The notes beneath the pieces are model-generated. The model made no database searches. It worked only from the letters and a program-made list of their open reading frames with translations, and had not been told where the DNA came from. Of a DNA stretch of 64,000 nucleotides, positions 34,639 through 59,436 are shown one piece after another (position 1 is the first letter of the stretch; each line of letters starts with the position of its first letter). The DNA comes from Salipaludibacillus neizhouensis. GTDB taxonomy: Bacteria; Bacillota; Bacilli; Bacillales; Salisediminibacteriaceae. Location: contig NZ_KZ614146.1 of the NCBI RefSeq assembly GCF_002886185.1, forward strand, positions 1,410,930 through 1,474,929. The letters are read 5' to 3'. The position numbers were made by a program, and so were the translations under genes.

Positions 34639-34658
34639 GTTGTTACAGGTAACTTATT

Positions 34659-42178: not shown

Positions 42179-42204
42179 AAGAGCTGGTGCCTGGTGTGGT
42201 CAAG

Positions 42205-42430: not shown

Positions 42431-42451
42431 AAGAGTCCTCCTTAGAGCTCC

Positions 42452-42679
42452 ATGCACCATAAACTGTTTGACCGCGGTGTATTCACAATCAACTCATCCA
42501 GGAAACTACTAGTCTCAGAAGAAGCAAATGGGACTAATGGTTTTGATGAGTGGCTTATGAGTTTTCATGGCAGAGAAATCCGTTCACCAGTCCATCCCGC
42601 CTACGCTCCACAAGAAAGTTTTATGAATTGGCATGTCAGCGAAGTTTTTAAAGGACCGGAGCGGTATTTTGGGAATTAA
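42452..42679 (+). pseudogene. HNH restriction endonuclease relic, copy 2
   Basis: The 75-codon frame (MHHKLFDRGVFTINSSRKLL, then GFDEWLMSFHGREIRSPVHP and FMNWHVSEVFKGPERYF) matches the C-terminal end of HNH endonucleases annotated as phosphorothioated-DNA-binding restriction enzymes. The preceding codons, which should hold the N-terminal DNA-binding domain and the first HNH residues, are replaced by the IS3 relic. No ribosome binding site is seen. A shorter relic of the same part is at 31.6 kb. Confidence 0.7.
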
Positions 42680-42903
42680 GGAGAATTCGTACATAAAAGA
42701 TAATCGTTTTATGAACAGATTCAAGAGCATTCTCATTGTGCCCTTATAAAAGTAGGAAAAGATCACTATGGAAAAACAAGTGATCTAAGTTAGAAACCAA
42801 CCTTCCCAGTTAATACCAGTGTTGTAATTGCTGTTTTTTCGAAGAATCTATGGAATAAGTATTAGTAATTAACATTATAAAATACAAATAAAGGAGTTTT
42901 CCT

Positions 42904-43989
42904 ATGTATAAAGTTGATATGACTAATAATGAGTTGATAGAAATTGAAACTACTAACTTTTCAGAACAGAAGATAAAAGAAAGAGAACATATTGAAGAAT
43001 GGATTAGGAAGAGTCCTCAAACATTAGGAGAAGACTTACTTATTATTGGTCATGAGTATGATAAATTTGAAAATAACGAACGTCTTGATTTGTTAGCCTT
43101 AGACACAGATGGCAATTTGGTTATTATTGAAACAAAACAAGACTACGCGAGTTCAGGAGTTGATTTCCAGGTTCTAAAATATTGTTCTTATTGTTCAACG
43201 TTAAAGCCAATTGACATTATAGAAATTTACGAGGAGTATATTAAAAAGTTTAGTCTGCAAGGTGATGCTATTGATAATATACTTGAGTTCCTAGACATTG
43301 ATTCCCAAGATATCTTAAACAATTTATTAAACAAAAGCCAACGAATTATTATTGTCGGCAATGAATTTGATAGAAGAGTCCTTTCTGTGGGAGCATGGTT
43401 GCATCAGAATGGGATTGATATCAAATGTATATCCATCAAACCATATATAGGAAATAATCAATCAGAATTACTAATAGATTTAAAACAACTTATTCCTCCT
43501 CAAAATATTGAAAATTATTACATTAAAAAGAAAGTCCAAAACACAAAATCTCAAGGTGATGTTTACCAGTCAGGTAATGTCATTCAATTTTTTGAGAAAA
43601 CTGTTGAAAACGCAAAACGAAAAGGTCATCAAGCATATTATCATCCGAGGAAATCTTATTGTACTGTAAAATCAGGATACAAGAACATTTCGTTTACGCT
43701 CATATATCAAAAGAGTTTTTCTCATTTTGTTATTGAAGTGGTTACTAGTGATCCTGAAGTAAAAAAGGACATTTTTTCTGTATATCAAGGCAATGAAGAC
43801 ATGATTACTTCAAAAACCCAATTAGAATTTAAGACAGAAAGTGGGAAAAGAAATCCAGATTGGGGAAGAATCATAGGGTATCAAAAAATAGATAATGACG
43901 TAGCCATAGATCATTATTCTGAAGATATAAATAATAAATTCATCATGACAATTGAAGCTTTTAAAGAGCTCTTTAAACCAGGTATGTAA
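42904..43989 (+). CDS. NucS/DUF91-like PD-(D/E)XK endonuclease
   Basis: The N-terminal half of this 361-residue protein carries a nuclease core: EHIEEWIRKSPQTLGEDL, then RLDLLALDTDGNLVIIETK with D ... E-x-K, and the following helix VDFQVLKYCSYCS. This is typical of NucS/DUF91-like proteins widespread in defence regions. The C-terminal half (from about 230) is an unrecognised alpha/beta domain with GRIIGYQKI. It probably cuts DNA. AAGGAG precedes the ATG. It stands alone between an HNH relic and a duplicated repeat. Confidence 0.8.
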   Translation: MYKVDMTNNELIEIETTNFSEQKIKEREHIEEWIRKSPQTLGEDLLIIGHEYDKFENNERLDLLALDTDGNLVIIETKQDYASSGVDFQVLKYCSYCSTLKPIDIIEIYEEYIKKFSLQGDAIDNILEFLDIDSQDILNNLLNKSQRIIIVGNEFDRRVLSVGAWLHQNGIDIKCISIKPYIGNNQSELLIDLKQLIPPQNIENYYIKKKVQNTKSQGDVYQSGNVIQFFEKTVENAKRKGHQAYYHPRKSYCTVKSGYKNISFTLIYQKSFSHFVIEVVTSDPEVKKDIFSVYQGNEDMITSKTQLEFKTESGKRNPDWGRIIGYQKIDNDVAIDHYSEDINNKFIMTIEAFKELFKPGM

Positions 43990-44035
43990 GGAATTATAAT
44001 GAAGCTGGAGGGTCTACACTTCATTTTTGTTGTAT

Positions 44036-44096
44036 GAATTTTTGGTGCTTAACGTTACAGTAGTGGGGGGTCAGACACTTTTTTTCGTTTTCAATC
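44036..44096 (+). repeat. Dispersed hairpin repeat, family B, diverged left arm
   Basis: aacgttacagtagtggggggtcagacactttttttc, with only part of the left arm. It forms the start of the longer direct repeat 44052-44320. Confidence 0.65.
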
Positions 44097-44320
44097 TATT
44101 TCTTTCTATATATAGTGTGGGTTTGCTCTCTTCGCATAAAACATCTTCACTAATTTCTACATTGTTGTCATCTCGAAATTGCAGACGACAACAGGGGCAA
44201 ATGTCAAAAGAATGATCATTATATTCATCATATGCAGGTTCGCCTAACTTACATATTAATATGTTCAAAACTATAATCTGCCGCTATACTAATATTTAGT
44301 GAAAGACTAATTGGTAGGAA
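44052..44320 (+). repeat. Left copy of about 260-bp direct repeat flanking sugar-acid cluster 2
   Basis: Nearly all of this stretch recurs at 56432-56692 in the same orientation, with scattered substitutions and small gaps. It begins with the right arm of a family B repeat and ends with ttggtaggaa. On the minus strand it encodes the relic of a small Cys-rich protein (AYDEYNDHSFDICPCC), resembling cysteine-rich CPCC proteins. The two copies enclose the complete cluster 2. Confidence 0.85.
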
Positions 44321-44321
44321 T

Positions 44322-44346
44322 ACGAACAGTGCCTGGCACTGCTCGT
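44322..44346. repeat. REP-like palindrome, family A
   Basis: acgaacagtgcc and ggcactgctcgt arms. It lies directly at the inner end of the left direct repeat, and is absent at the right copy. Confidence 0.75.
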
Positions 44347-44409
44347 ATGTCAGCTCCTATTTATCTGGAGTTATATCTCCATAGGCACAAACCTTTAAAG
44401 TCAGCAAAC

Positions 44410-45105
44410 TTAATCAACGTTCATATAAAATTGTTTTGCTCGAGAGAAATTGAGTTCGATTGCCTGTTTTATTTTCTGATTATCTCTGTCTGTAATAGCT
44501 TGCATTAATTTTTTTCGACACTCTATACTGTTTGTCCGAGCACCGGGTACATTAAGAATTTTTGTCATTGATTCGTTCCGTAAATGCACGATTGTTTGCA
44601 TTAGTTTGCTATATATTCTGTTACTACTACAGTGACCCATATGCAGATCAAATTCGTCAAGTAACTGTTGGAAGGTGTTATTATTCTCTGAATTATCATT
44701 TAGTTTATTTAATATGCCTTCTAGTTTTATTATGTCATTATTTATCATATTTTGAGAAGCTTCAAAGTAAACTTCAGACTCAATTAGCTTACGTGCAGCA
44801 TAAACTTCTTCTAAATTATTAACTTCCTTATAATACATCCAACCAATTGTTTCAGCTGGAATAGTAGACTCTTGTTTATTTACAAAGCTTCCTTCTCCAG
44901 GCTTTATCGTAATAAGACCAATGAGAGCTAGTGCACGTAATCCTTCCCTTATTCGACCTCTATTGACTCCAAATTCCTCAGCCAAGGTACGTTCATTAGG
45001 GAGTTTCTCCCCTGCCTTTAATTGATTGGTAGTTATCCAAGAAGCCATTTGTTCCATAATCTGTTCAGTAATAGTTATTCTCTTAATTGGATTGATCTTA
45101 ACCAT
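44410..45105 (-). CDS. GntR family regulator, FadR/FCD type, cluster 2
   Basis: The 231-residue protein has a winged helix (ERTLAEEFGVNRGRIREGLRAL) and an FCD domain with the D-x3-H type ligands in LLDEFDLHMGH. Such repressors sense sugar acids. The ATG follows AAGGGGA. It is divergent from the cluster 2 operon, and three TGGTACTACCA sites lie between the two, so it probably represses both itself and the operon. Its relative in cluster 1 uses a different palindrome. Confidence 0.88.
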   Translation of the reverse strand: MVKINPIKRITITEQIMEQMASWITTNQLKAGEKLPNERTLAEEFGVNRGRIREGLRALALIGLITIKPGEGSFVNKQESTIPAETIGWMYYKEVNNLEEVYAARKLIESEVYFEASQNMINNDIIKLEGILNKLNDNSENNNTFQQLLDEFDLHMGHCSSNRIYSKLMQTIVHLRNESMTKILNVPGARTNSIECRKKLMQAITDRDNQKIKQAIELNFSRAKQFYMNVD

Positions 45106-45153
45106 CTTATAATCCCCTTTTTGTTATTTATCGTTTTTATAAATCATATGTTA

Positions 45154-45166
45154 CTGGTACTACCAG
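45154..45166. promoter_or_regulatory. GntR operator 1 (CTGGTACTACCAG)
   Basis: A 13-base palindrome 49 bases upstream of the GntR start. Two further TGGTACTACCA copies lie nearer the operon. This motif fits known TGGT...ACCA operators of FCD-type GntR proteins. Confidence 0.75.
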
Positions 45167-45264
45167 AGTATCACAATTTATTTATAATAGGTATTCCCCA
45201 TCTCTAAACGAATGCTGCTAAAAGCAAATTAGATGAAAGAATATTCGAAGTATTTAATTTATAC

Positions 45265-45293
45265 TTGTAAACGCTTTAATCGCGTGGTATATT
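45265..45293 (+). promoter_or_regulatory. Promoter of cluster 2 overlapping a cre-like site
   Basis: TTGTAA, a 17-base spacer and TATATT form the promoter. The -35 box overlaps TGTAAACGCTTTAA (45266-45279), a cre-like site with one or two mismatches. The layout is the same as in cluster 1. Confidence 0.75.
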
Positions 45294-45303
45294 TTAGGTG
45301 TTG

Positions 45304-45314
45304 TGGTACTACCA
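45304..45314. promoter_or_regulatory. GntR operator 2 (TGGTACTACCA)
   Basis: Lies 11 bases after the -10 box, over the expected transcription start, a repressing position. A second cre-like site TGAAAACGCTCTCT follows at about 45329. Confidence 0.78.
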
Positions 45315-45398
45315 CCGAATAACTTTAAATGAAAACGCTCTCTTAATGGGGGTTGTAATTAAGAAAAGAAATATATTGTCACTTTCATTTGCATTTAT

Positions 45399-45409
45399 TG
45401 GTACTACCA
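45399..45409. promoter_or_regulatory. GntR operator 3 (TGGTACTACCA)
   Basis: Third identical site, in the untranslated leader of the operon, 95 bases from operator 2. Repressor looping between sites is possible. Confidence 0.75.
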
Positions 45410-45480
45410 CAGTACCAAAGAGGAGTTGAACTAACTTATTGAAAGCTAATATTAAAATTAAACAGAGAGGAGAAAAAAAT

Positions 45481-45792
45481 GTGAGTGACCATATTTTCAG
45501 ATCAATTGTAATGAAGCCATTGGATGACGTAGCAGTTGCTTTACAAGAGATTCCAGATGGAACTGAAATTGAAGTACATTTTTCGGAAGATCAAACGGCT
45601 AAATTGGTCTTAAAGGAAATAATATCTTTTGGTCATAAGTTTGCTATACGGACAATTAATAAAGGAAGTGAAATCAAAAAATATGGTGAAGTAATTGGGA
45701 GAGCTTCAAGAGATATTGAAATAGGTCAACATGTTCATGTGCACAATTTGGAAGGAATTAGAGGAAGAGGGGATAAAATTGTTAGAGATTGA
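45481..45792 (+). CDS. UxaA-family sugar-acid dehydratase, small (SAF-domain) subunit
   Basis: The 103-residue product is the SAF domain found at the N-terminus of altronate and galactarate dehydratases (DDVAVALQEIPDGTEIEV, then KFAIRTINKGSEIKKYGEVIG and HVHVHNLEG). GTG 45481 is chosen because AGAGGAG lies eight bases upstream; an earlier TTG at 45439 has a poorer site. The large subunit gene overlaps by 14 bases. Together they should dehydrate a sugar acid to a 2-keto-3-deoxy acid, using iron. Confidence 0.85.
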   Translation: MSDHIFRSIVMKPLDDVAVALQEIPDGTEIEVHFSEDQTAKLVLKEIISFGHKFAIRTINKGSEIKKYGEVIGRASRDIEIGQHVHVHNLEGIRGRGDKIVRD

Positions 45793-46954
45793 AGAAGGGA
45801 AATTCTTAGGGTATCGTCGATCCAATGGAAAAGTTGGTGTTCGCAATCACGTCCTTATATTACCAACTATTACATGTGCTACGCAAGCTGCAAAGCAAAT
45901 TACAGAGCTGGTAGATGGAACAGTTTCCTTTATACACCAACATGGATGTGCTCAAGTTGGAGATGATTATGAACAAACATTTCGAACTTATGTAGGTTTT
46001 GGTGAAAATCCGAATGTATACGGTGTAATAGTACTTGGATTAGGGTGCGAAACCCATCAGGCAAAAAGTGTTGCTGAGGAAATAGCTAAATCAGGAAAAC
46101 CTGTTGTAACAGTTTCCATTCAGGATCACGGAGGAACGTTAACAGCAATAGCTGAAGGAGCAAAGGAAGCTACCAAACTAGTTCAAGAAGCGTCAACTCA
46201 ATTAAGAGAATTGTGCGATTTCAGTGAATTGATTATTGGTACTGAATGTGGTGGATCTGACGCCTGTTCTGGATTATCTGCTAACCCAGCGGTTGGTGCT
46301 GTTAGTGACAAGATTGTTGAAAAGGGTGGGACTGCTATTCTAGCTGAAACAACAGAGTTAATAGGAGCCGAACATTTGTTAGCTAACCGTGCTTCTAACG
46401 ATAAAGTTAAAAAACGTGTATATGAAGTAATAGAGTCTATGGAAAATCGTTCAATGCAAATGGGTATTGATATTCGTACAGGTAATCCAAGTCCTGGAAA
46501 TATTGATGGTGGATTAAGTTCACTAGAGGAAAAGTCATTAGGAGCTGCAAATAAATCGGGGACTAGTCCTTTAAATCAGATAATAGATTACGCGGAAGAA
46601 CCAACAGAGAAAGGTTTAGTTTGGATGGATACACCGGGCCATGACATAGAGCAATTAACTGGAATGGTAGCTGGAGGGGCTCAAGTTGTCTTATTTACAA
46701 GTGGAAGAGGGACACCTACAGGCTCACCAATTGCTCCTGTCATAAAAATTGCAACAAATACTCCTATGTTTGAACGTATGGGAGAAAATATGGACCTAAA
46801 TGCAGGGAATATCATTGAGGGAACAGAAACAGTTGAAGAAGTTGCTAATAGAATATTCAACGAAATAGGATTAGTTAGTACTGGTAAAAAAACTAAAGCA
46901 GAAATCCTAAAACAACATGACTTTGGCATTTGGAGAATTGGACCAACGTTTTAA
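45779..46954 (+). CDS. uxaA: UxaA-family sugar-acid dehydratase, large subunit
   Basis: The 391-residue protein matches the C-terminal catalytic part of altronate/galactarate-type dehydratases: GYRRSNGKVGVRNHV, HQHGCAQVGDD, GTECGGSDACSGLSANPA and SGRGTPTGSPIAPVIK. The conserved cysteines probably hold the catalytic iron. TTG 45779 follows GAGGGG and overlaps the small-subunit gene. The family acts on several aldonates and aldarates, so substrate cannot be fixed. Downstream enzymes suggest a pentonate or 6-deoxyhexonate as well as a hexonate. Confidence 0.87.
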   Translation: MLEIEEGKFLGYRRSNGKVGVRNHVLILPTITCATQAAKQITELVDGTVSFIHQHGCAQVGDDYEQTFRTYVGFGENPNVYGVIVLGLGCETHQAKSVAEEIAKSGKPVVTVSIQDHGGTLTAIAEGAKEATKLVQEASTQLRELCDFSELIIGTECGGSDACSGLSANPAVGAVSDKIVEKGGTAILAETTELIGAEHLLANRASNDKVKKRVYEVIESMENRSMQMGIDIRTGNPSPGNIDGGLSSLEEKSLGAANKSGTSPLNQIIDYAEEPTEKGLVWMDTPGHDIEQLTGMVAGGAQVVLFTSGRGTPTGSPIAPVIKIATNTPMFERMGENMDLNAGNIIEGTETVEEVANRIFNEIGLVSTGKKTKAEILKQHDFGIWRIGPTF

Positions 46955-47052
46955 TAATTATACGTATTAATAGTATGGTAGATAACTGTTAATAGATGTT
47001 AAGAGTTCTTCCTATCATACTTTAATAAACAATAAAAAAGGAGATGGTTATA

Positions 47053-48144
47053 TTGAAAAAAATGAATAAGTGGATGTTTATGATTTTAGTAGTATTTATT
47101 ATTACACTGGTTACAGCATGCTCTAATGAGGAAACTTCTTCTAACTCACCTGATGAAGCAGAAAATGAAACAACAGAAGATTCCTCAAATGATTCTAATG
47201 AAGCTAAAGAAGAGAACGAAGCAAATGGGGTAGAGGCAATTACTATTAACATTGCTCATGGCAATCAACCTGATGAGCCTGTCGGCCAGTTAGCGCAAAA
47301 ATGGAAGGAGTTGGCTGAGGAAAGAAGTGATGGAGCACTTGAATTAAATCTTTATCCAAGTTCTCAATTAGGTTCTGAAAAAGATGTATTGGAGCAAGCT
47401 ATGATGGGTAATAACGTAATTGTCATGGCAGGGTATGACTTCTTAATGGATTATGTTCCAGATGCAGGTATATTAACTGCTCCTTATTTAGTAGAAGACT
47501 TTGACGAATTATTATATTTAACCGAAACGGAATGGTATGAAAGTTTAGTTGATGATTTAAATGGTGAAGGGATAGATATCGTTACAACAAGAACTGTTTA
47601 TGGGGAACGTCATCTTTTAACCAATGAAGAGGTACAAACACCAGCAGATTTAGAAGGGAAAAGTATTCGGGTTCCAAATAACCAAATGTCTATTGAAACA
47701 TTTGAAGCTATGGGGGCTTCAGCTACACCGACACCACTTGGGGATTTGTATACTTCACTTCAACAAGGACTTGTAGATGGTGCAGAAAACCCGCTTCCTG
47801 TACTTCAAGGTGTCAAGGCACAAGAAGTTTCAAAACACCTTGCATTGACAGGACATCAAAAATTTATTACTGCTTGGATAGGTGGAACTAGTTACTTAGA
47901 AACATTACCAGAGGATCTAGTGCAAATTTTAAAAGAGACTGGTGATGAAGCTGGGGATTATGCTAGAGGAATTTTAGATGAAGAAACAAAATCAGTTTTG
48001 GCTGAATTTGAAGAAGAGGGTGTAGAGATATATGAAGTGGACCAGGAGCCGTTCAGGGAATCAGTTCAAGAAGTTTATAACTCATTTCCATCTTGGACGC
48101 CTGGTTTATATGACCAAATTCAAGAATTATTAGAAAGCCGTTAA
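47053..48144 (+). CDS. dctP: TRAP transporter solute-binding lipoprotein (DctP family), cluster 2
   Basis: The 363-residue precursor has a lipoprotein signal ending ITLVTAC and a long acidic Ser/Glu/Asn linker before the DctP domain. The arginine-containing segment GKSIRVPNNQ is the usual carboxylate-binding site. The start is TTG 47053 with AGGAG nine bases upstream; ATG 47044 overlaps that site. It should feed a sugar acid to the DctQM genes that follow after a 169-base gap. Confidence 0.88.
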   Translation: MKKMNKWMFMILVVFIITLVTACSNEETSSNSPDEAENETTEDSSNDSNEAKEENEANGVEAITINIAHGNQPDEPVGQLAQKWKELAEERSDGALELNLYPSSQLGSEKDVLEQAMMGNNVIVMAGYDFLMDYVPDAGILTAPYLVEDFDELLYLTETEWYESLVDDLNGEGIDIVTTRTVYGERHLLTNEEVQTPADLEGKSIRVPNNQMSIETFEAMGASATPTPLGDLYTSLQQGLVDGAENPLPVLQGVKAQEVSKHLALTGHQKFITAWIGGTSYLETLPEDLVQILKETGDEAGDYARGILDEETKSVLAEFEEEGVEIYEVDQEPFRESVQEVYNSFPSWTPGLYDQIQELLESR

Positions 48145-48184
48145 TAAGTTTAGTCAGTAATAAACAGGTTGTATTAATTGGAGT

Positions 48185-48226
48185 AGTGGTGAGCGTGGGC
48201 TATTTGCAATCATGATCACCACACTC
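48185..48226. promoter_or_regulatory. Hairpin between dctP and dctQ
   Basis: GTGGTGA and TCACCAC arms lie in the only long gap inside the operon. Such a hairpin after a binding-protein gene often protects the upstream message, giving more DctP than permease. There is no T-run. Confidence 0.5.
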
Positions 48227-48313
48227 TTCATGTTAAAAGCCATATGATTAATTATCAATTTCACTTAAATAATTAGCCGAATTTTTTAACATGTTCTGTC
48301 AGGGGGGAGTTTA

Positions 48314-48790
48314 ATGATTAAAAAGTGGTTTAATGCTATTGATGATGGGGCGTCTACTTTCGCACTTTTTGGAATTATCATACTAACTGGTATAAACGTT
48401 TTTTCCAGGTATGTATTAAACAACTCATTACCATGGATTGAAGAAATTGCTATTGGTTTATTTGTTTGGTTTGTTTTTGTAGGTATGAGCTCAGCAATGA
48501 AGGAAGATAAACATATAGGAGTTGACTTCTTTGTTAAGAAAATGCCAAGACAGATTCGTATTATTGGTTTTATAATTCGTGCTGTAGCCATTTATTATGT
48601 TCTCTTCTATGTCTTTATCTATCTTGGATACGATTTAATGAAGACAAGCAAAATAACGCCAATTTTAGGAATTAGTTATAAAATAATTAATTTAGCTGTC
48701 CCTATTGGTGGATTATTAACGGTTATTCATTTTACTAAGGTATTGGTAAAGTCTTTTCCTATAGAATTTGGAAAAGAAGGGGGATCATGA
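48314..48790 (+). CDS. dctQ: TRAP transporter small membrane subunit (DctQ), cluster 2
   Basis: The 158-residue protein has four hydrophobic helices and the DctQ segment SSAMKEDKHIGVDFF. A GGGGGGAG site precedes the ATG. It forms the permease with DctM, whose start lies one base after its stop. Confidence 0.88.
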   Translation: MIKKWFNAIDDGASTFALFGIIILTGINVFSRYVLNNSLPWIEEIAIGLFVWFVFVGMSSAMKEDKHIGVDFFVKKMPRQIRIIGFIIRAVAIYYVLFYVFIYLGYDLMKTSKITPILGISYKIINLAVPIGGLLTVIHFTKVLVKSFPIEFGKEGGS

Positions 48791-48791
48791 G

Positions 48792-50075
48792 ATGGCTTTA
48801 ACTGCCGTATTAATAGTTTTAATATTGTTATTCATTTTAAATGTACCAATAGCATTTTCCTTAATTATAAGTACATCCGTATACTTCTTCTTTACTGATA
48901 GTTTTTCAAGTACAGTCTTAATTCAAAGAATGATTGGTGGGGTTCAATCAGTTCCTTTGCTTGCTATATTATTTTTTGTTACAGCAGGTATCTTAATGAA
49001 TTATACGGGTATTACAACAAGGATGCTCCGGTTTGCACAAATTTTAACTAATCGTCTCCCTGGATCTTTAGCCCAAGTAAATGTGGTTTTGAGTACATTA
49101 ATGGGTGGATTGTCGGGATCAAATGTTGCAGATGCAGCTATGCAATCGAAGATTCTAGTCCCTCAAATGGAAAAAAAGGGGTACAGTAAAGCATTTGCAA
49201 CAGCACTTACTGCATCAACTTCTTTAATTACACCAATTATTCCTCCAGGTATTGCTTTAATTATGTATGGTTATATTGGAAATGTTTCAATTGGCGATTT
49301 GTTTTTAGCCGGCGTTCTACCTGGACTCGTTTTATGCTTGAGTTTTATGATTTATGTTCATTTTTATGCCAAAAAACATAAAATTGAAACAGAAAATAAA
49401 GAAAAAGTCACAAAAAAATACTTTTTCTTAACCTTTAAGGATGCAATCTTAGCATTATTATTGCCAGTAGTTATCATAGGTGGAATACGGTTTGGAGTAT
49501 TTAGTGCTACGGAAGCTGGAGCAATAGCGGTATTCTATGCATTTTTTCTAGGGTTGGTTGTCTATCGTGAAATGAAGATAAATCAATTATTTGGTGCACT
49601 TATTGAAACTGTGCATACAGCCGCTTCTATATTACTCATAATTGCTGCAGGTTCGGCGTTTGCTTGGGTACTAACATTAGAGCAAGTCCCACAGAGAATG
49701 ACAGGGTTAATGGTTAATTATATTTCCTCTGAATTTATATTTTTTATTGTTGTTCTTATTTTCCTATTAATCGTAGGAATGTTTATTGAAGGTAATGTTT
49801 CTATCGTTATTTTAACACCTCTGTTTATGCCAATGATTCAACAATATCAAATAGATCCAGTTCATTTTGGTATTTTCTTTATCGTATGTATAAGCATAGG
49901 AACACTCACACCTCCTTTAGGTACAATTATGTACACAACATGTGCGATTACAGGTACAAAGGTTGAAGAATTCATAAAAAGTAGTGCTCCATTTTTATTA
50001 ATTCTAATAATAGCAGCATTACTTCTCGCATTCGTACCAAGTATTTCTCTTTGGTTACCATCAGTTTTAAATTAG
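48792..50075 (+). CDS. dctM: TRAP transporter large membrane subunit (DctM), cluster 2
   Basis: The 427-residue protein has about 12 hydrophobic segments with GGLSGSNVADAA and TPPLGTIMY, typical of DctM. ATG 48792 follows AAGGGGGA at seven bases; an earlier in-frame ATG lies inside dctQ. It is paralogous to the cluster 1 DctM, but the two are clearly different in sequence, so the clusters are not recent duplicates of each other. Confidence 0.9.
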   Translation: MALTAVLIVLILLFILNVPIAFSLIISTSVYFFFTDSFSSTVLIQRMIGGVQSVPLLAILFFVTAGILMNYTGITTRMLRFAQILTNRLPGSLAQVNVVLSTLMGGLSGSNVADAAMQSKILVPQMEKKGYSKAFATALTASTSLITPIIPPGIALIMYGYIGNVSIGDLFLAGVLPGLVLCLSFMIYVHFYAKKHKIETENKEKVTKKYFFLTFKDAILALLLPVVIIGGIRFGVFSATEAGAIAVFYAFFLGLVVYREMKINQLFGALIETVHTAASILLIIAAGSAFAWVLTLEQVPQRMTGLMVNYISSEFIFFIVVLIFLLIVGMFIEGNVSIVILTPLFMPMIQQYQIDPVHFGIFFIVCISIGTLTPPLGTIMYTTCAITGTKVEEFIKSSAPFLLILIIAALLLAFVPSISLWLPSVLN

Positions 50076-50134
50076 TTAATAAGATTATCTTTCATGTCTT
50101 TATAGATTTTCCAAATAAGATATTAAGAGGTGCA

Positions 50135-50902
50135 ATGTTGATTAATATTAATCTAGAAAAACAAACCGTTTTAATAACAGGTGGTGAAACTGGCATTGGG
50201 AGAGCGATAGCTATTAAGGTCGCTGAGGCCGGTGCTAGAGTAGCTATTAATTACAATAGTAGTAAAGAGAGTGCTGAACAAGTTACTTCTGAAATTATTG
50301 CAAATGGAGGGATTGCTTATAATTATCAATGCGATGTCACTAAAGAAGAACAAGTAAAAATAATGGTATCTAACATTGAGGTTGACCTTGGTTCGGTGGA
50401 TATTCTTGTTAATAATGCTGGCTCACTAATAGAAAGGTGTAGGGTTGATGAGATGTCTTCGGAACTTTGGGAAGAAGTAGTAAATGTTAATCAAAAATCT
50501 GTCTTTCTATGTTCTAAATATGTTATCCCAGCTATGAAGATGAATAATTATGGCAGGATAATTAATGTCTCTTCTATTGCTGCAAGAAACGGAGGAGGAA
50601 TGGGGGCCGTAATTTATGCATCTACTAAGGCTGCAGTGAGTGCATTTACAAAAGGCTTAGCGAGGGAACTGAGTGAATTCCAAATTTCAGTAAATGGTGT
50701 GGCACCAGGTACGATAACAACTGCATTTCATGATAAATTTACGGAAAATAATGTAAGAGAAAAGGTCGTTGAAACGATCCCATTAAAGCGAGAAGGAACG
50801 CCAGAAGAAGTAGCTAATGCGGTACTATATTTGGCATCACCTTTAAGCTCGTTCTTATTAGGTGAAGTGATTGAGGTTAATGGTGGACAGTTAATGGATT
50901 AG
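50135..50902 (+). CDS. SDR oxidoreductase, cluster 2 first copy
   Basis: The 255-residue short-chain dehydrogenase has TGGETGIG, NNAGS, the Ser region NVSSIAARNG and YASTK. It resembles sugar and sugar-acid 1- or 3-dehydrogenases (glucose-1-dehydrogenase and FabG-like). In this operon it could oxidise an aldose to a lactone or an acid to a keto acid. ATG 50135 follows AGAGG; the upstream extension lacks homology. Confidence 0.82.
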   Translation: MLININLEKQTVLITGGETGIGRAIAIKVAEAGARVAINYNSSKESAEQVTSEIIANGGIAYNYQCDVTKEEQVKIMVSNIEVDLGSVDILVNNAGSLIERCRVDEMSSELWEEVVNVNQKSVFLCSKYVIPAMKMNNYGRIINVSSIAARNGGGMGAVIYASTKAAVSAFTKGLARELSEFQISVNGVAPGTITTAFHDKFTENNVREKVVETIPLKREGTPEEVANAVLYLASPLSSFLLGEVIEVNGGQLMD

Positions 50903-50913
50903 TAGTACAGGGG

Positions 50914-50945
50914 TTTGGAGATATAATAGCAAACAATTATATCTC
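50914..50945. promoter_or_regulatory. Intra-operon inverted repeat
   Basis: GGAGATATAAT and ATTATATCTC arms lie between the SDR and dehydrogenase genes, without a T-run. It may be a processing or stability hairpin. Confidence 0.45.
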
Positions 50946-51006
50946 TAGTTGTGAAAGCGTCATCTTATGGTTCGAATTGATAAATTAATAGGAGGTAGGA
51001 AAAGAA

Positions 51007-52020
51007 ATGAGAGTAATTAGTTGTGAAGATCCTAAGCTATTTGTGGAAAAAACCGAAGGAAAACCTAAAATAGTAGACGGCGAAGTACTGATAGAGATAA
51101 AAAAAATAGGCATTTGTGGTACGGATATTCATGCATACCATGGTAGTCAACCTTTCTTTACTTATCCAAGGGTATTAGGTCATGAATTAGCTGGTATTGT
51201 AAAAGAAGTGGGAAATAACGAAAATAAATTGAAGATAGGTGATCAAGTAACGGTTATTCCTTACATGGAATGTGGGACCTGTAAACCTTGCAGAAGTAGA
51301 AAAACGAATTGTTGTACAAATATAAAAGTATTAGGGGTACACATAGATGGGGGAATGAGAGAATACTTGCGTGTAGCAATTGATCATGTGATTCAAGTAA
51401 ATAATATTAGCTTAGATGAAGCCTCGATGATAGAGCCATTAAGTATTGGTGCACATGCAGTAAAACGTTCAAATCTTCAAGAAGGACAGGTAGCATTAGT
51501 TATCGGTGCTGGACCTATTGGATTAGGTGTAATGAAGTTTGCTAAATTAACAGGAGCAAAAGTGATAGCCATGGATATTAATGAGGATCGTCTGAAATTT
51601 TGTAAAGAATGGGCAGAAGCTAACCACACAATTAATGCCTTAGATGACGCTAAGGATCATTTGAATCGATTAACAGATTCTGATTTTCCAGATGTCGTTT
51701 TTGATGCAACTGGAAATAAAATGTCTATGATGAATGCATTTAACTATGTTGGTCATGGTGGTCAACTAGTTTATGTTGGACTAATTAAAGAAGAGTTAAC
51801 TTTTAACGATCCAGAATTTCATAAAAGGGAAATGAGTTTACTGGCGAGTCGAAATGCAACTTTACAAGATTTTAACTATGTCATTAATTGTATTGAAAAA
51901 GGTTTAATTGACGTAGACAAAATCATTTCAGATCGAATTAGTTTCTCTAACCTTATTGATGAATTTGAAGAGTTATTTGAACCATCAAGAAAAGTAATTA
52001 AAGCGGTTGTAGAATTGTAA
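51007..52020 (+). CDS. Zinc-dependent sugar or sugar-acid dehydrogenase, cluster 2
   Basis: The 337-residue enzyme is a zinc MDR protein: GICGTDIHAYHG, GHELAGIV, structural Cys at CGTCKPCRSRKTNCC, and the NAD fold GAGPIGLG. Relatives oxidise L-galactonate, L-idonate, galactitol or similar substrates. AGGAGG precedes the ATG. It may convert the imported substrate before dehydration. It is a paralogue of the cluster 1 enzyme at 22.6 kb but clearly diverged. Confidence 0.85.
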   Translation: MRVISCEDPKLFVEKTEGKPKIVDGEVLIEIKKIGICGTDIHAYHGSQPFFTYPRVLGHELAGIVKEVGNNENKLKIGDQVTVIPYMECGTCKPCRSRKTNCCTNIKVLGVHIDGGMREYLRVAIDHVIQVNNISLDEASMIEPLSIGAHAVKRSNLQEGQVALVIGAGPIGLGVMKFAKLTGAKVIAMDINEDRLKFCKEWAEANHTINALDDAKDHLNRLTDSDFPDVVFDATGNKMSMMNAFNYVGHGGQLVYVGLIKEELTFNDPEFHKREMSLLASRNATLQDFNYVINCIEKGLIDVDKIISDRISFSNLIDEFEELFEPSRKVIKAVVEL

Positions 52021-52147
52021 GAATATGATCCAAGTGAACTGGAATGCCATTTCCCTATTCATAGTTAAACCGGAGAAGTAGTGGAATAATAGTTTCGAAT
52101 AAATACAAAACCTAGTTTTAGATTTTAAAGCAAATGGAGGAGTTTTA

Positions 52148-53047
52148 ATGAGGATAATTCGATTTGAAGAGAAGGAATCAAAAAAAGTAGTATTAGCAGC
52201 TGTAACAGAAGGAGGTAAAATATATTCACTTCCGTATGCTAGTTTCATAGATGTAGTAAATGTAGCAACGACCAAAAGTGTTCAACCCCTTGAATTAATT
52301 AATGAGATTATTTTAGATACTCTACCGTTAAATTATTCTTTAGAAAAGTTAAATCTGTTAGTACCAATTGAGGCTCCAGAAGTTTGGGCTGCGGGAGTAA
52401 CGTATCAAAAAAGTAAGGAAGCTCGAAATCATGAAGCTACAAATGGAAAACTAGATGCAACTACCTTTTATGACAAGGTTTACGATGCAGAAAGACCTGA
52501 AATCTTTTTCAAGTCTACAAAGGAACGAACAATTGGTCCTAACAGCCAGTTATATTTAAGAAGTGATTCAAATTGGCAGATACCTGAGCCAGAATTAGGG
52601 CTGGTGCTTGACGGTAAGGGGGACATTCTAGGATATACGATAGGAAATGATATGAGTTGTCGTGATATTGAAGGTGAAAACCCGCTTTATTTACCGCAAG
52701 CAAAGGTATGGGCACGCTCTTGTTCCATTGGCCCAGCTATTCTTCTAGCAGAATCTGTAGAAGATCCTTATAACTTTGATATCATGTGCAAAATTTACCG
52801 TAACGAAGAGCTAGTAGTCGAAGGTTCTGCAAGTACTAGTCAACTTAAACGCAAGTTTGAAGAGTTGGCTGGTTTTTTAAAAAGAGATAATATCGTGTTT
52901 CCAGGTACGGTCTTGTTAACAGGAACATGTATTGTTCCTCCAAATGATTTTACTTTAAATGATGGAGATCAAATTGAAATTGAAATTTCTGGAATTGGGA
53001 AATTAACTAATTTAGTTAAAAGCCAGGTTGTTCAAATTGTAAGATAA
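52148..53047 (+). CDS. FAH-family 2-keto-3-deoxy-pentonate (KDA) dehydratase-like
   Basis: This 299-residue FAH-fold protein begins its catalytic part with WAAGVTYQKSKEARNHE, then PEIFFKST, PEPELGLVLD (metal-binding Glu pair) and GNDMSCRDIEGENPLYLPQAK. This pattern fits 2-keto-3-deoxy-D-arabinonate dehydratase and related enzymes, which make 2-oxoglutarate semialdehyde from a C5 keto-deoxy acid. The aldehyde dehydrogenase encoded next is the expected following step, which strengthens the call. TGGAGG precedes the ATG. Confidence 0.8.
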   Translation: MRIIRFEEKESKKVVLAAVTEGGKIYSLPYASFIDVVNVATTKSVQPLELINEIILDTLPLNYSLEKLNLLVPIEAPEVWAAGVTYQKSKEARNHEATNGKLDATTFYDKVYDAERPEIFFKSTKERTIGPNSQLYLRSDSNWQIPEPELGLVLDGKGDILGYTIGNDMSCRDIEGENPLYLPQAKVWARSCSIGPAILLAESVEDPYNFDIMCKIYRNEELVVEGSASTSQLKRKFEELAGFLKRDNIVFPGTVLLTGTCIVPPNDFTLNDGDQIEIEISGIGKLTNLVKSQVVQIVR

Positions 53048-53096
53048 AAGGTAAAATTTTACGAAAATTGAAAACAAATTCTAGGAGGAATTTTTT

Positions 53097-54563
53097 ATGG
53101 TAATAAAAACAGAAGCTACTACATTTTTAAATTTTGTGAACGGTTCGTGGGTCAAAGCATCGAGCTCAGAAGTAGAGGCAAGTATTAATCCAGCTAATCA
53201 TAATGAAATTGTAGGGTATGTACAGAAATCATCTCTTGAAGACTTGAATACTGCAGTTGAAGCTGCCAAAAAAGCTCAAAAACCATGGGGAAAACTTTCC
53301 GGTGCAGAGAGAGGGGATTATTTATACAAAGTTGCTGATATTCTCGAAAAAAACATAGAACAAATAGCTGAAACAATGACAAAGGAAATGGGTAAAACCT
53401 TACCGGAAGCAAAAGGTGAAACCGCCCGTGGAGTTGCAATCTTAAGGTACTATGCAGGAGAAGGTATGAGAAAGGTTGGGGATGTTATTCCTTCTACTGA
53501 CAGTGAAGCACTACTGTTTACAACACGTACTCCTCTAGGAGTGGTAGGCGTTATTACTCCATGGAACTTTCCAGTAGCTATCCCAATTTGGAAAATGGCA
53601 CCGGCATTAGCATATGGGAATACGGTGTTGATAAAACCTGCTGGAGAAACATCGGTAACTGCAGCGAAAGTAATGGAATGTTTTGCTGAAGCAGGATTAC
53701 CAGAAGGTGTTATAAACATGGTAACCGGTTCAGGTACGGTAATCGGTCAAGGGATTATTAATCATGAGGATATTAATGGAATTACATTCACAGGCTCTGA
53801 TAGTGTGGGAAAACTAGTTGGTCAAGGGGCATTAGCTCGAGGTGCAAAATATCAATTAGAAATGGGTGGTAAAAACCCAGTTATTGTTACTGACGATGCC
53901 GATATTGACTTAGCTGTTGAAGCGACAATTAGCGGAGGACTTCGATCCACGGGGCAAAAATGTACGGCAACAAGCCGTGTTATCGTACAAAGTGCCGTAT
54001 ACGAAGAATTCAAAGAAAAATTAGTCTCAAGAGTAAAAGAGTTAAAAGTAGGTGACGGCTTACATGAAGAAACGTGGATGGGACCTTGTGCAAGTGAGGC
54101 GCAAATGAATACAGTTCTTTCTTATATTGAGAAAGGTAAAGAAGAAGGGGCAACTCTTCTCTACGGTGGAAATAAACACGAAGAAAAAGGATTAGAAAAT
54201 GGATTCTATGTGCAGCCAACATTGTTTGATAATGTCAAAAATGACATGACTATTGCTCAAGAAGAAATTTTTGGGCCAGTATTAGCTTTAATTAAAGTTG
54301 ATACATTAGAAGAAGCTGTTCAAGTAGCTAATGATTCAAAATTTGGCCTAAGTGCATCGATCTTTACAAGAAATATATCTAATATGCTTTCCTTTATCAA
54401 AGATATGGATGCAGGTCTTGTTCGTATTAATGCTGAGAGTGCTGGTGTTGAACTCCAAGCTCCATTTGGTGGAATGAAACAGTCTAGCTCGCATTCGAGA
54501 GAACAAGGTCAAGCAGCTATTGAATTCTTTACTTCTATTAAAACCGTATTTGTAAAATCATAG
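53097..54563 (+). CDS. Aldehyde dehydrogenase, 2-oxoglutarate-semialdehyde type
   Basis: The 488-residue enzyme has the ALDH active site: Glu in LEMGGKNP and Cys in GQKCTATS, with the cofactor region [10 protein letters not shown]. It resembles 2,5-dioxovalerate (2-oxoglutarate semialdehyde) dehydrogenases of non-phosphorylative pentose and aldarate pathways. Placed directly after the KDA-dehydratase-like gene, it would complete conversion to 2-oxoglutarate. AGGAGG precedes the ATG. Confidence 0.85.
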
Positions 54564-54655
54564 TATTTTTATAGAATAATAATACAAATGAAAGGTACTC
54601 CGATCCCAGGCTATCTAATGGTATGTAATTAATTAATCAGAAAGAAGAGGATAAT

Positions 54656-55426
54656 TTGAGACTTAAGAATAAAGTCGCCTTAGTAACCGGAGCAGGATCA
54701 GGAATAGGGAAAGAAACCGCACTAACATTTGCTAAAGAAGGTGCATTCGTTATTATTGCAGATATAAATGAAGTGATGAGTTATGAGACTGTCCAAGAAA
54801 TTGAAGCGATAAGTGGAAAATCATTTTTTGTAAAAGTTAATGTTACAAATGAAGACAGTATCAAAAATATGGTTAAAGAGGTTCAAGAAAAATGTGGAAA
54901 GATTGATATCTTATTTAATAATGCTGGGATAAGTGGTGTAGGTCAATTACATGAGATAGAACGAGAAACGTGGCAAAAAGTACTTGACGTTAATGTCACG
55001 GGAGTTTTTTTAGTTTCAAAAGCGGTCTTGCCTATCATGATGGATCAAAACAGCGGTTCAATAATTAATATGTCTTCTTGTATTGCAGAAATAGGTTTGG
55101 CTAACAGGGCTTCTTATGCTGCAAGTAAAGGAGCTGTTCTATCTTTAACGAAGTCGATGCAAGTTGACTATGCTAAATATAATATTAGAGTAAATGCTTT
55201 AATGCCAGGAACTATTTATACGCCATTTGTGGAAGACTATTTATCGAGAGAACCTAACCGTAATGCCGCAATTGCAAAGATAAAAGATAGACAGTTAAGT
55301 GGTGACTTAGGTAAACCAATTGACGTAGCGTATGCTGCACTATATTTAGCCTCTGATGAATCTAAATTTATGATGGGAACACCATTTGTAATAGATGGAG
55401 GAGTAGTTAACGGGAAGTCTAGCTGA
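54656..55426 (+). CDS. SDR oxidoreductase, 2-keto-3-deoxy-acid 4-dehydrogenase candidate
   Basis: The 256-residue short-chain dehydrogenase has TGAGSGIG, NNAGISG, the Ser region NMSSCIAEIG and YAASK. It is similar to 2-keto-3-deoxy-L-fuconate dehydrogenases, which make 2,4-diketo-3-deoxy acids. The following gene encodes a hydrolase that would split such products, so the two should form one branch. TTG 54656 follows AGAGG at five bases. Confidence 0.82.
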   Translation: MRLKNKVALVTGAGSGIGKETALTFAKEGAFVIIADINEVMSYETVQEIEAISGKSFFVKVNVTNEDSIKNMVKEVQEKCGKIDILFNNAGISGVGQLHEIERETWQKVLDVNVTGVFLVSKAVLPIMMDQNSGSIINMSSCIAEIGLANRASYAASKGAVLSLTKSMQVDYAKYNIRVNALMPGTIYTPFVEDYLSREPNRNAAIAKIKDRQLSGDLGKPIDVAYAALYLASDESKFMMGTPFVIDGGVVNGKSS

Positions 55427-55488
55427 AGGAGCTCTTACCACTATTACAAAGGATGTTAAGACTATATTAATACATGGAGGCTTCTTAT

Positions 55489-56379
55489 ATGAAATTGCTT
55501 ACGTTTTATGAAAAAGGAGAGTTGAAATTAGGAGCTAAGACAGAAGCAGGGATATTGAATATTGAAAAGGCCGCAACTTATTTCAATATGGAAGTGGTTA
55601 CTTCTTTTGAGGATGTGATTGGTAATGAAGGGGCTATCGAAGCTTTTGAATCTTTAATAGAATTAGCTATCGAGAATAAATCTAAGCAATTAATTTTAGA
55701 TGAGGAAAGTATAGTTTTTGGCCCTTCAATGCCGAAGCCTGGAAAAATAGTTTGTGTGGGGTTAAACTATCAAAAACATGCAATAGAATCAAATATGCCA
55801 TTTCCTGAATATCCAATTTTATTTAATAAATTTGATAATGCAATTGCAGCACATAATGAAATTATAAACCTACCAATTAATTCAGATGAAATCGATTATG
55901 AGGCTGAGCTTGCTATCGTAATTGGGAAAAAAGCAAAGCGAGTAAAAAAAGAAGAAGCATTAAATTATGTGTTTGGCTATTGTAATGCAAATGACTTATC
56001 ATCTAGAGATTTACAGTTCCGTACAAATCAGTGGTTATTAGGTAAAACTTGTGATGGATTTAGTCCACTGGGTCCCTATTTAGTCACAAGTGAAGAAGTT
56101 GGAGATCCGAACGACCTATCGATTAAGACTACTGTTAATGGTGAAATGCGGCAAAATTCTAATACATCAGATATGATTTTTAAGTGTGATGAAATTGTTA
56201 GTTATATTTCCGAGTATATGACCTTGAGTCCAGGTGATATTATTTTAACAGGCACTCCTGCCGGGGTGGTTTTTGGATTACCAGAAGATAAAAGAGTGTA
56301 TTTACAAGACGGTGATGAAGTGACAATTAATATAGAGAAATTAGGAAAGCTTACTAATACATTTAAAAAAGAAGTATAA
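55489..56379 (+). CDS. FAH-family 2,4-diketo-3-deoxy acid hydrolase-like
   Basis: The 296-residue protein is a fumarylacetoacetate-hydrolase-fold enzyme: VCVGLNYQKHAIESN, PILFNKFDNAI, DYEAELAIVIGKKA (metal Glu residues), GYCNANDLSSRDLQ and LTGTPAGVVFG. It resembles 2,4-diketo-3-deoxy-L-fuconate or -rhamnonate hydrolases, which yield pyruvate and L-lactate (or glycolate from pentonates). ATG 55489 has GGAGG eight bases upstream; the ATG at 55474 overlaps that site. It is the last gene of cluster 2, 22 bases before a family B repeat that can act as terminator. Confidence 0.82.
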   Translation: MKLLTFYEKGELKLGAKTEAGILNIEKAATYFNMEVVTSFEDVIGNEGAIEAFESLIELAIENKSKQLILDEESIVFGPSMPKPGKIVCVGLNYQKHAIESNMPFPEYPILFNKFDNAIAAHNEIINLPINSDEIDYEAELAIVIGKKAKRVKKEEALNYVFGYCNANDLSSRDLQFRTNQWLLGKTCDGFSPLGPYLVTSEEVGDPNDLSIKTTVNGEMRQNSNTSDMIFKCDEIVSYISEYMTLSPGDIILTGTPAGVVFGLPEDKRVYLQDGDEVTINIEKLGKLTNTFKKEV

Positions 56380-56401
56380 TACGAATGAATTTCATAAATA
56401 A

Positions 56402-56463
56402 GACCTGGTGCCTGCCCCCGACCACTGTAAAACATTACAGTAGTGGGGCCAGGCACTTTTTTT
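56402..56463 (+). repeat. Dispersed hairpin repeat, family B, acting as cluster 2 terminator
   Basis: GTGCCTGCCCC, CCACTGTAA and their complements TTACAGTAGTGG and GGGCCAGGCAC form a long stem followed by eight T. It is well placed to end cluster 2 transcription. Confidence 0.8.
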
Positions 56464-56692
56464 CCATTTTCAATCTATTTCTTTCTAGTGTGGGTTTGCT
56501 CTCTTCACATAAAAACATCTTCACTATTTCTACTTTGTAATCTTCTCGAAATTGCAAGCCCAACAGGGGCAAATGTCAAAAGAAGGATCATTATATTCAT
56601 CATATGCAGGTTCGGCTAACTTACATATTAATATGTTCAAAACTAAAATCTGCCGCTATACTAATATTTAGTGAAAGACTAATTGGTAGGAA
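56432..56692 (+). repeat. Right copy of about 260-bp direct repeat flanking sugar-acid cluster 2
   Basis: Same orientation as 44052-44320. It carries the same minus-strand relic of a small Cys-rich protein (AYDEYNDPSFDICPC). It lacks the family A palindrome found beside the left copy. Confidence 0.85.
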
Positions 56693-56765
56693 GAATATCA
56701 TCATTATAATGGTATACTATGGTAAATTAATACAGGGATTTTTCCATTAAAAAGGAGTTTGTTAG

Positions 56766-57722
56766 ATGACGAGTTATCATTTAAATTATGAAACTGTGAA
56801 AAGCAAGATCTTGCCGTCGATTTCCCTTAGCTTAAATGAATCACAAACTACTGCGATTTACAGTGATACAGATATGCAGGCGGAGTTCATAGATACACTT
56901 CTTAGTAATGGAGATATTACCGTGTTTGATCAGAAGGAAGGATTATATGATCGTTTGACGGTAGTTGATAATGTTACTTTTTATCATAAATGGTTCGGTT
57001 GTTCGATACCATTGCCTGAAATTCTTGTGATGTTCGAGCTGCAAATGTTTGCCACATAGCCTTTGCGGAAGTGCTCGCCGTCTGAAATTGCTCGTGTATA
57101 CTATGCAAAATACTTTATGTCGGATACGTATCCAATGGTATTTCAAGAGCCGATTCATGGTGTCGATATCAAGACGATCAATATCTTTATCAGCATGCTA
57201 AAAAAGATAACAGACAATAAGGTACCAGCACTTATTTTAGTCTCCAATATTGAACATGCTCTGCTTCTTAGCGATGTTGCCTATAGGTTACGGGAAAATG
57301 GATTGCAGGAGATTGAAGTAGATAACGGGGAGAAGGATGAGAGTGCACCTGATGCTGAAACAGTTTCTACATTATCAACAGCAAAGTTATTTAAGATTCC
57401 TGCCAAGATAGATGATAAAGTCATTTTGTTCGACCCGATGGAAATTGATTATATCGAAAGCCAGGAGGGAAAGGCCATGATTGTCGTAAATCATGAATCT
57501 TTTTCACTCGATTCGACGTTGGCTGAAATAGAGAAAAAATTAGAGGTATATGGTTTTTATCGGTGTCACCGATCATACATCGTCAATTTGCAAAAAGTAC
57601 GTGAGATCATTACATGGTCAAAAAATACATACTCACTCCGGATTGATAACCAACCCAAGTCAACCATTCCATTAGCTCGGACAAAAATGCAAGGTATCCA
57701 GGATATGTTTAACCTGAAATAA
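56766..57722 (+). pseudogene. LytTR regulator with ABC-like N-terminus, interrupted by an amber codon
   Basis: The first 97 codons form an ABC-ATPase-like domain without clear nucleotide-binding motifs (SISLSLNESQTTAIYSDTD, GLYDRLTVVDNV). TAG at 57057-57059 stops translation. The same frame continues directly with LRKCSPSEIARVYYAKYFM, the rest of that domain, and then a LytTR DNA-binding domain (DYIESQEGKAM ... GFYRCHRSYIVNLQKV). Normal family members are one protein of about 310-320 residues that regulates the adjacent ABC genes. The stop may be a true nonsense mutation, a sequence error or rarely read through. AAGGAG precedes the ATG. An internal restart at TTG 57063 lacks a ribosome site. 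Confidence 0.82.
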
Positions 57723-57884
57723 GTACCGTTCAGCTTTTACTTGGAACAAAGCTCCTTTTGCGATATCCATTCATCAAGAAATGGGTACATTTTAGCTTCC
57801 TTTTGGTACATCTTGCTTTGATATTACTGCATTCACAAGCAATACAGGATACGATATGCAGAGATCACAAAAGGAGGAGTTCAG

Positions 57885-58733
57885 TTGGAAAATGCAATTA
57901 AAGTTACGGAGTTAAGAAAGGTTTTCGATCACCATGTCGCCATTGAAGATATCAGTTTCTCTGTGAAGCCCGGAGAAATTTTTGGTTTGTTGGGACCGAG
58001 TGGATCAGGTAAAACAACAACGATCAAAATCTTAACAGGAGAGCTTGGCCAAACAGCGGGTGACGTCAACGTATTAGATATAAGTGCTCCATTATTTAGA
58101 ACTGCTGATTTTAAATCTAAAATTGGGATACTATCCGATAATAGTACGTTGTATGAACGTCTAACCGTGTATGATAATTTGAAATTGTTTTGTAAGTTGT
58201 ATGATGCACCATTAGAACAAATTGATGTCATGCTGGATCAAGTAAATTTGAAAGAGGCACGCAGCAAAGTCGTGTCTAAATTATCAAAAGGGATGAAGCA
58301 GCGTGTTCTGCTGGCAAAAGCGCTTATTCATAAACCTGACCTTGTATTTTTAGATGAACCTACTTCGGCTTTGGACCCTGGGAATATGGCACATATCCAT
58401 CGTGGGCTGCAGAAGCTGAATGATGCAGGGACGACTATATTTATAACCACTCATGATATGGAGGAAGCAACAGAATTATGTGATCGTGTTGCTTTTTTAG
58501 ACAACGGTAAAATACAGGAATTGGGCAGCCCGGCTGAGCTCCGGTATAAATACTCCACCCACGCCTTTCATATTGAAACATTTGAGAATGAACGACTGGT
58601 GATGGCAAATGAGGCCGGGAGTGCGGATAAAATCAGGGATCTAATTGCAAACGGAAAATTAAAATCCATCCAATCGGATCATCCCACACTCGGTCAGGTC
58701 TTTTTAAAAATAACCGGAAAGGAGCTGGCATAA
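57885..58733 (+). CDS. ABC transporter ATP-binding protein
   Basis: The 282-residue ATPase shows Walker A GPSGSGKTT, a signature with LSKGMKQRV in place of the classical LSGGQ, Walker B LVFLDEPTSALD and the switch His in TTHDMEEA. It is of the drug or antimicrobial-export type (ABC-2). The TTG start follows AAAGGAGG. It shares one base with the permease start, forming a two-gene exporter under probable control of the preceding LytTR regulator. Confidence 0.9.
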   Translation: MENAIKVTELRKVFDHHVAIEDISFSVKPGEIFGLLGPSGSGKTTTIKILTGELGQTAGDVNVLDISAPLFRTADFKSKIGILSDNSTLYERLTVYDNLKLFCKLYDAPLEQIDVMLDQVNLKEARSKVVSKLSKGMKQRVLLAKALIHKPDLVFLDEPTSALDPGNMAHIHRGLQKLNDAGTTIFITTHDMEEATELCDRVAFLDNGKIQELGSPAELRYKYSTHAFHIETFENERLVMANEAGSADKIRDLIANGKLKSIQSDHPTLGQVFLKITGKELA

Positions 58734-59428: not shown

Positions 59429-59436
59429 TGCAGGGT

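Follow-up and report, generated by a model that had tools for sequence, protein, structure and literature searches.

In Herbaspirillum huttiense, the non-phosphorylative pentonate routes II and III involve a UxaA/GarD-family D-arabinonate dehydratase, FAH-fold 2-keto-3-deoxypentonate (KDP) dehydratases, and a branch in which a short-chain dehydrogenase (SDR) is paired with an FAH hydrolase, as set out in the excerpted part of the published account (PMC6336799). Tandem duplication followed by random loss of genes is, in the excerpts of two further papers, a process known mainly from mitochondrial genomes (PMC5975268, PMC5122201). Both are relevant to a 64,000-nucleotide stretch of Salipaludibacillus neizhouensis DNA (contig NZ_KZ614146.1, here C1, positions 1,410,930 to 1,474,929; hereafter the window), in which a sugar-acid catabolic cluster lies between two copies of a direct repeat and differs in gene order from its sister cluster at exactly those two copies. 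The bracketing repeat has the look of a scar left by an earlier duplication or insertion in repeat-rich surroundings. It is probably not an accident, and nothing was seen that would point to a dedicated mobile cassette.

The repeat pair at the ends of the cluster

The left copy of the repeat (44052–44320, plus strand, 269 bp) and the right copy (56432–56692, plus strand, 261 bp) have the same orientation, a spacing of 12.37–12.38 kb and 90% overall identity, which bears out the first-pass annotation of a direct repeat of about 260 bp bracketing the cluster. The better of two alignments contains 13 substitutions and 14 gap columns. A 132-bp block reaches 98% identity, and exact runs of 46, 30, 29, and 24 bp are common to both copies. 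Between them are twelve genes (44410–56379) in the order R n D P Q M s1 A f1 K s2 f2, where R is the regulator and D the dehydratase, and the distances from repeat to cluster are 89 bp on the left and 52 bp on the right. An apparent unevenness in the divergence of the copies, which would have indicated a conversion tract, came from an alignment with a misplaced gap (22 versus 3 substitutions, p 0.0036). Since realignment gave 10 versus 3 (p 0.335), this claim was dropped.

A search of all 5,511,086 bases (11 contigs) of the genome returned the two copies and no third match, and a mobile high-copy repeat is therefore rejected. The repeat is absent from the other seven genomes of its genus and, apart from one 24-bp match, from 80 related loci, which were kept from 121 relatives of D found among named genomes. 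A query around the right copy matched 16 of 397 genomes of the order, the host included, and in the other 15 the matched part was mostly just a hairpin, along with a few short stretches in other places of the query. The plasmid collection contained no DNA match to the repeat.

On the minus strand, both copies carry the 3’ portion of a small gene encoding a CPCC motif, as had been noticed from the letters alone, and a 5’ lesion is common to the two. The left relic (44074–44268, minus strand; C1:1455003–1455197) has lost its N-terminal part and is open over all 65 codons searched, while the right relic (56459–56640, minus strand), represented by two protein matches, is frameshifted. The name was given because of protein matches to intact relatives (99–112 aa, in 6 of 298 other genomes of the order examined) and not on the strength of the Pfam model PF14206, which had no match in the host genome at E 0.01 and, among the eight genomes of the genus, gave matches below its cut-off in two and above it in none. 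As sources of the repeat, phages were discarded, the relic being encoded by no phage record, and so were plasmids, in which proteins 45–54% identical occur in 11 records with no match at the DNA level.

The right copy overlaps a complete hairpin of family B, a GTGCCTG...CAGGCAC stem-loop of about 50–60 bp that is dispersed in Bacillales. This hairpin (56407–56463, plus strand) starts 27 bp after f2, is followed by a run of T, and is terminator-like, with a folding energy of –31.5 kcal/mol (z –6.1 against shuffles). The earlier reading had placed a family B hairpin in both copies, which holds fully for the right one; the left copy keeps the right half only (44052–44086, plus strand), begins at the second base of the four-base loop, and folds no better than shuffled sequences (z –0.04). 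Because matches to the right-copy query in other genomes are mostly the hairpin alone, family B can be regarded as an ordinary dispersed stem-loop of Bacillales, similar in size and dispersal to the bacterial stem-loop repeat families in the excerpt of PMC2267715. Between 40 and 60 kb of the window no known RNA was detected at the gathering threshold.

A second palindrome, of family A (44321–44347, no strand assigned), abuts the left copy, as the first-pass annotation had it, and is separated by 62 bp from the 3’ end of R. At up to three mismatches the genome contains four family A sites, all within 1.21–1.46 Mb of C1, three of them in the window (at 3600, 21372, and 44321). One of the window sites lies about 450 bp upstream of a GntR-like open reading frame (ORF) at 21848, in another sugar-acid cluster (read by eye). 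Three of the four sites lie close to the border of a duplicated segment, at distances of 0, 2, and 4 bases, whereas 2.9% of random intergenic positions come within 5 bp of such a border. With tolerances of 2, 5, and 10 bp, p is 0.0016, ~1e-4 (three of four sites), and 0.0004, for four sites in all and with tolerances chosen afterwards. No family A core was present in viral contigs. Seven matches to the REP-transposase-type model PF01797 (REP, repetitive extragenic palindrome) exist in the genome, none of them in C1 1.19–1.59 Mb, and no palindrome of family A or B lies within about 1.5 kb of the seven, one lone CAGACAC in L250 apart. Movement driven by REP-like repeats, as had been suggested, and a link to a REP transposase are thus unsupported. 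Unlike the stem-loop and REP families treated in the excerpts of PMC2267715 and PMC2817692, family A has only four sites, confined to 250 kb, and no linked transposase was found.

Gene order relative to the sister cluster

In Halalkalibacter alkalisediminis (L026) the homologous cluster reads A, IclR, f1, K, s2, and f2, then R, convergent with f2, followed by n, D, P, Q, and M in the direction away from R. Compared with this order, the two blocks are swapped in the window, which amounts to a circular permutation in which the IclR gene is missing and s1 stands at the join. The break of the permutation falls exactly at the two repeat copies. In eight relatives that have both R and f2, f2 is adjacent to R and convergent on it in six (L026, L029, L031, L032, L033, and L045). 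The remaining two, L030 and L034, which are sisters of each other, begin with R and end with s2-f2, as in the window.

In a tree of ten concatenated proteins from 12 loci, with missing genes entered as gaps, the window and L026 are sisters with 100/100 support, and a grouping of L030 and L034 with the window is rejected (p-AU 7e-6). Among seven single-protein trees, those of M and s2 (starred in the analysis) and of D (SH-aLRT 91) agree with the pairing of the window and L026. Since L026 is the sister and the clade with L030 and L034 is rejected, the order in the window is derived within its own branch, with its break point at the site of the repeat. In four of the six loci with f2 convergent on R (L026, L029, L031, and L033), s2 has an operator-like site of its own, TGGTAGTACCA. 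This site is absent from L030, L034, and the window, where none was found even at 9 of 11 matching bases. For the window, such an absence would be expected if s2-f2 had moved into the main operon. Separately, L026 contains an 89-bp repeat (1089–1177 and 10694–10782) upstream of A and of P, probably a common promoter or operator region.

In the 80 related loci, direct repeats of 100 bp or more on either side of D were also sought. Five such pairs occurred in four loci, all labelled by the script as overlapping ORFs, and those in L059, L060, and L100 fall within paralogous genes of the cluster. In Bacillus sp. FJAT-29790 (L048), the homologous cluster, from IclR to K (2783–12712), lies between direct repeats at 2466–2594 and 12799–12938, the left copy ending about 190 bp short of IclR and the right one starting 86 bp beyond K. 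The right copy there consists of the last ~28 codons and the terminator of an intact minus-strand gene (12856–14601), and the left copy is a decayed duplicate of the same gene end. This anatomy, a gene 3’ end with a hairpin, is that of the repeat in the window. That the L048 repeat represents a donor allele was considered and rejected, the differences at the three codon positions (4, 3, and 5) fitting neutral decay. A laxer scan yielded nine direct non-coding pairs in the 80 loci, four of which enclose D, so that the bracket in L048 could also be due to chance.

Gene products and predicted pathway

The product of R (44410–45105, minus strand) is a GntR/FCD regulator; all other genes of the cluster are on the plus strand. 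Three TGGTACTACCA palindromes (at 45155, 45304, and 45399; 45155–45409) lie in the gap between R and n, and in nine of nine relatives scanned one to three sites of the form TGGT-n-ACCA are present in the gap or at its edge. These palindromes are probably the operators of R. The n product (45439–45792) matches the N-terminal part of the galactarate dehydratase model and corresponds to a UxaA/GarD N-terminal (SAF-like) subunit, while D (45731–46954) encodes a sugar-acid dehydratase of the UxaA/GarD family for which the match among solved structures is galactarate dehydratase. They are followed by a TRAP importer made up of the substrate-binding protein P (47044–48144), the small permease Q (48314–48790), and the large permease M (48768–50075).

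Downstream of the importer we count six enzymes (s1, A, f1, K, s2, and f2) and not five, as first annotated. The first, s1 (50051–50902), is an SDR whose true start is probably further downstream, since family matches begin near residue 35, and A (51007–52020) belongs to the zinc-type alcohol dehydrogenase family. The FAH-fold protein f1 (52148–53047) has 2-keto-3-deoxy-D-arabinonate dehydratase (PDB: 2q18) as its closest solved relative. The product of K (53097–54563) passes the curated cut-off for GucD, an alpha-ketoglutaric semialdehyde (KGSA) dehydrogenase. A second SDR, s2 (54656–55426), is a putative 2-keto-3-deoxy-acid 4-dehydrogenase, a role suggested by its partner f2 (55474–56379), an FAH hydrolase related to HpaG-type enzymes and to L-2,4-diketo-3-deoxyrhamnonate hydrolase (PDB: 8gsr) that scores under the curated cut-offs.

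By protein family, the dehydratase, the pair of KDP dehydratase and KGSA dehydrogenase, and the pair of KDP dehydrogenase and hydrolase, i.e., the families of routes II and III, are all present in this one cluster. Together with the enzymes described from H. huttiense, these families suggest that the cluster most likely serves a pentonate such as D-arabinonate, with two predicted branches, one most likely leading to ketoglutarate (f1 and K) and the other to pyruvate and glycolate (s2 and f2). In the excerpted account (PMC6336799) the H. huttiense routes likewise employ a UxaA/GarD dehydratase, an FAH-fold KDP dehydratase comparable to f1, and an SDR 4-dehydrogenase with an FAH hydrolase, comparable to s2 and f2; here these stand alongside a GucD-type KGSA dehydrogenase. 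The present cluster differs from what that excerpt describes in its TRAP importer and GntR regulator, in a substrate predicted from families, and in that f1, among solved structures, most resembles an archaeal dehydratase.

Origin of the bracketing

We tentatively favour, with slightly less than even confidence, a one-off event through which the spacer between f2 and R came to be present twice. Ancestrally, a single spacer would have separated the convergent f2 and R, as in the sister cluster and most relatives. The cluster would then have been duplicated in tandem in the host lineage, with subsequent loss of complementary halves; alternatively, and formally equivalently, a circle carrying the cluster would have been inserted by one crossover, giving the same structure. 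The cluster would thereby have acquired its permuted order, described above, and be flanked on both sides by a copy of the spacer. Both this ancestral spacer and the sequence in which duplication and loss took place are inferred. Each of the two variants explains the repeat and the permutation together, and they are indistinguishable with the genomes compared. Tandem duplication with random loss predicts a block-swapped or circularly permuted order (PMC5975268, PMC5122201, in the excerpts cited above), and a circular permutation of the sister is what is found, apart from the loss of IclR and the gain of s1. That spacer copies would be left at both ends is our own deduction. In the present case neither an intermediate nor the ancestral spacer was observed. 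On its outer side the left copy starts within the loop of hairpin B, and on its inner side it stops at the foot of palindrome A, which places the break points at palindromes. In principle, recombination between the repeats could still delete the 12.4 kb.

Several results weigh against a duplicated spacer. The f2-R spacer of L026 (~440 bp) shows no homology to the repeat beyond chance matches of 11–21 bases and the five other f2-R spacers read are of ~46–59 bp, so that the supposed ancestral spacer is not seen in relatives. Nor was any remnant of a lost gene detected outside the repeats (40000–44051 and 56693–61000; tblastn and blastn, 0.01). L030 and L034 reached a similar order with no bracketing repeat, and permutation therefore needs no repeats. 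Two loci with f2 convergent on R, L032 and L045, also lack the s2 operator. In the K tree, which has two long branches, the window does not group with L026 (SH-aLRT 84), and the trees of R, f2, and f1 do not resolve their relation. Finally, repeat pairs are common in the 400-kb stretch around the window (C1 1190001–1590000). Direct pairs of 200–999 bp, at least 85% identical and 3–50 kb apart, number 24 there against 1 and 3 in two 400-kb control stretches, although one multi-copy family accounts for several of the 24; for all repeat pairs the figures are 470 against 317 and 390, and only the longer pairs clearly separate the stretch. Coding density is 0.76 in the stretch and 0.84 in the controls. 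A foreign base composition was set aside as weak (G+C 0.359 versus 0.372 and 0.377). It is because of this background that coincidence stays a serious rival: the CPCC relic and hairpin may have been copied within a decaying, repeat-rich stretch, the copies happening to land at the ends of the cluster. We regard this as quite possible, if somewhat doubtful. Of the 24 pairs, 19 join two gaps, and another small ORF is duplicated within the window (6991–7390 and 39662–39981). Against coincidence, the copies lie 89 and 52 bp from the cluster ends and exactly at the point of permutation, and a repeat pair is held by 24 of 6273 gap pairs, which is the chance for a pair of gaps named beforehand. This figure, together with the similarly flanked L048 cluster, speaks for the one-off event, although many clusters could have been noticed. 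As the present one was noticed because it is bracketed, the exact bracketing, unlikely for a pre-named cluster, is not proof.

Each copy of the second direct pair in the window contains an ORF of 72–73 aa. The 400-kb stretch also includes duplicated ORFs that are phage-replication-like or nuclease-like (translations read by eye), and collinear repeated pieces about 35 kb apart (31571–37771 and C1 1477.7–1486.7 kb), which suggest an old segmental duplication with later insertions. Left of the cluster, a small ORF (42452–42679) resembles the end of an HNH-type nuclease gene (read by eye), and part of it recurs at 31571–31665. Right of the repeat, a LytTR gene (56766–57722) is split in two frames (56766–57059 and 57063–57722) and is a single frame in the relatives G021 and G028.

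The distribution of the cluster bears on a further explanation, a passive cassette, i.e., a 12.4-kb unit entering and leaving several strains by homologous recombination between the repeats. The D protein was matched in 13 of 35 genomes of the family, with at least 76% identity only in the host and one other, and an orthologue of R (E <= 1e-40) is present in 5 of the 397 genomes of the order, the other four all outside the host family. This patchiness in Bacillales suggests that the cluster was acquired horizontally. Relatives of D are also found on two Bacillaceae plasmids, pBY2G20 of Metabacillus dongyingensis (82%) and pNCT2_4 of Priestia megaterium (79%), where they sit in gucD clusters that have an IclR regulator and are arranged differently, one of the plasmids being typed as mobilizable. 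A cassette would account for these facts, for the exact runs shared by the repeats, and for the similar flanks of the L048 cluster. Yet among the genomes of the order the repeat is present in the host only, its hairpin and short stretches in the 15 others apart; it is lacking in the related loci save for the 24-bp match, and in the plasmid collection at the DNA level. Nor did an empty site turn up: in the loci read from the 35 family genomes searched, none is syntenic for the flank proteins. The gene at the left flank (42904–43989), a DUF4268 gene, occurs in none of the 80 related loci, and the LytTR neighbour was matched (threshold E 1e-15) in L103 only, at 35%. Related clusters thus have unrelated flanks, which tells against a cassette in general and remains compatible with a one-off event in the host lineage. 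What stands of the original cassette proposal is a low-copy repeat, a patchy cluster, and copies placed at the break in gene order, and nothing shows movement as a unit; the repeat itself is not the common element that would have undone the proposal, even though pairs of similar size abound nearby. We consider such a cassette unlikely. In being made up of a gene 3’ end and a terminator, the repeats are reminiscent of the att duplications found in integrative islands, most clearly in L048, and an island that has since lost its integrase might be imagined. However, the twelve genes between the repeats encode a regulator, transport proteins, and enzymes, with no integrase or mobility gene among them, as was noted from the start, and copies that differ by substitutions and indels are unlike an exact short core. 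This origin is highly improbable.

A more far-reaching proposal is that short palindromes mark the break points of duplications in the 400-kb stretch, and that the repeats are joints of a palindrome-provoked tandem amplification of the catabolic cluster. On the present evidence we hold it to be a rather speculative, improbable extension. If true, the cluster could still amplify or be deleted under selection, and Bacillus sp. FJAT-29790, with its own flanked cluster, would provide another instance.

Where repeats abound, as in this stretch, direct repeats on either side of a cluster say little about mobility unless the frequency of such pairs in the surroundings has been measured. A permuted catabolic operon and the repeat pair that flanks it may nevertheless record one and the same event, which would offer a way to read the past duplication or insertion of an operon without the help of any mobility gene.

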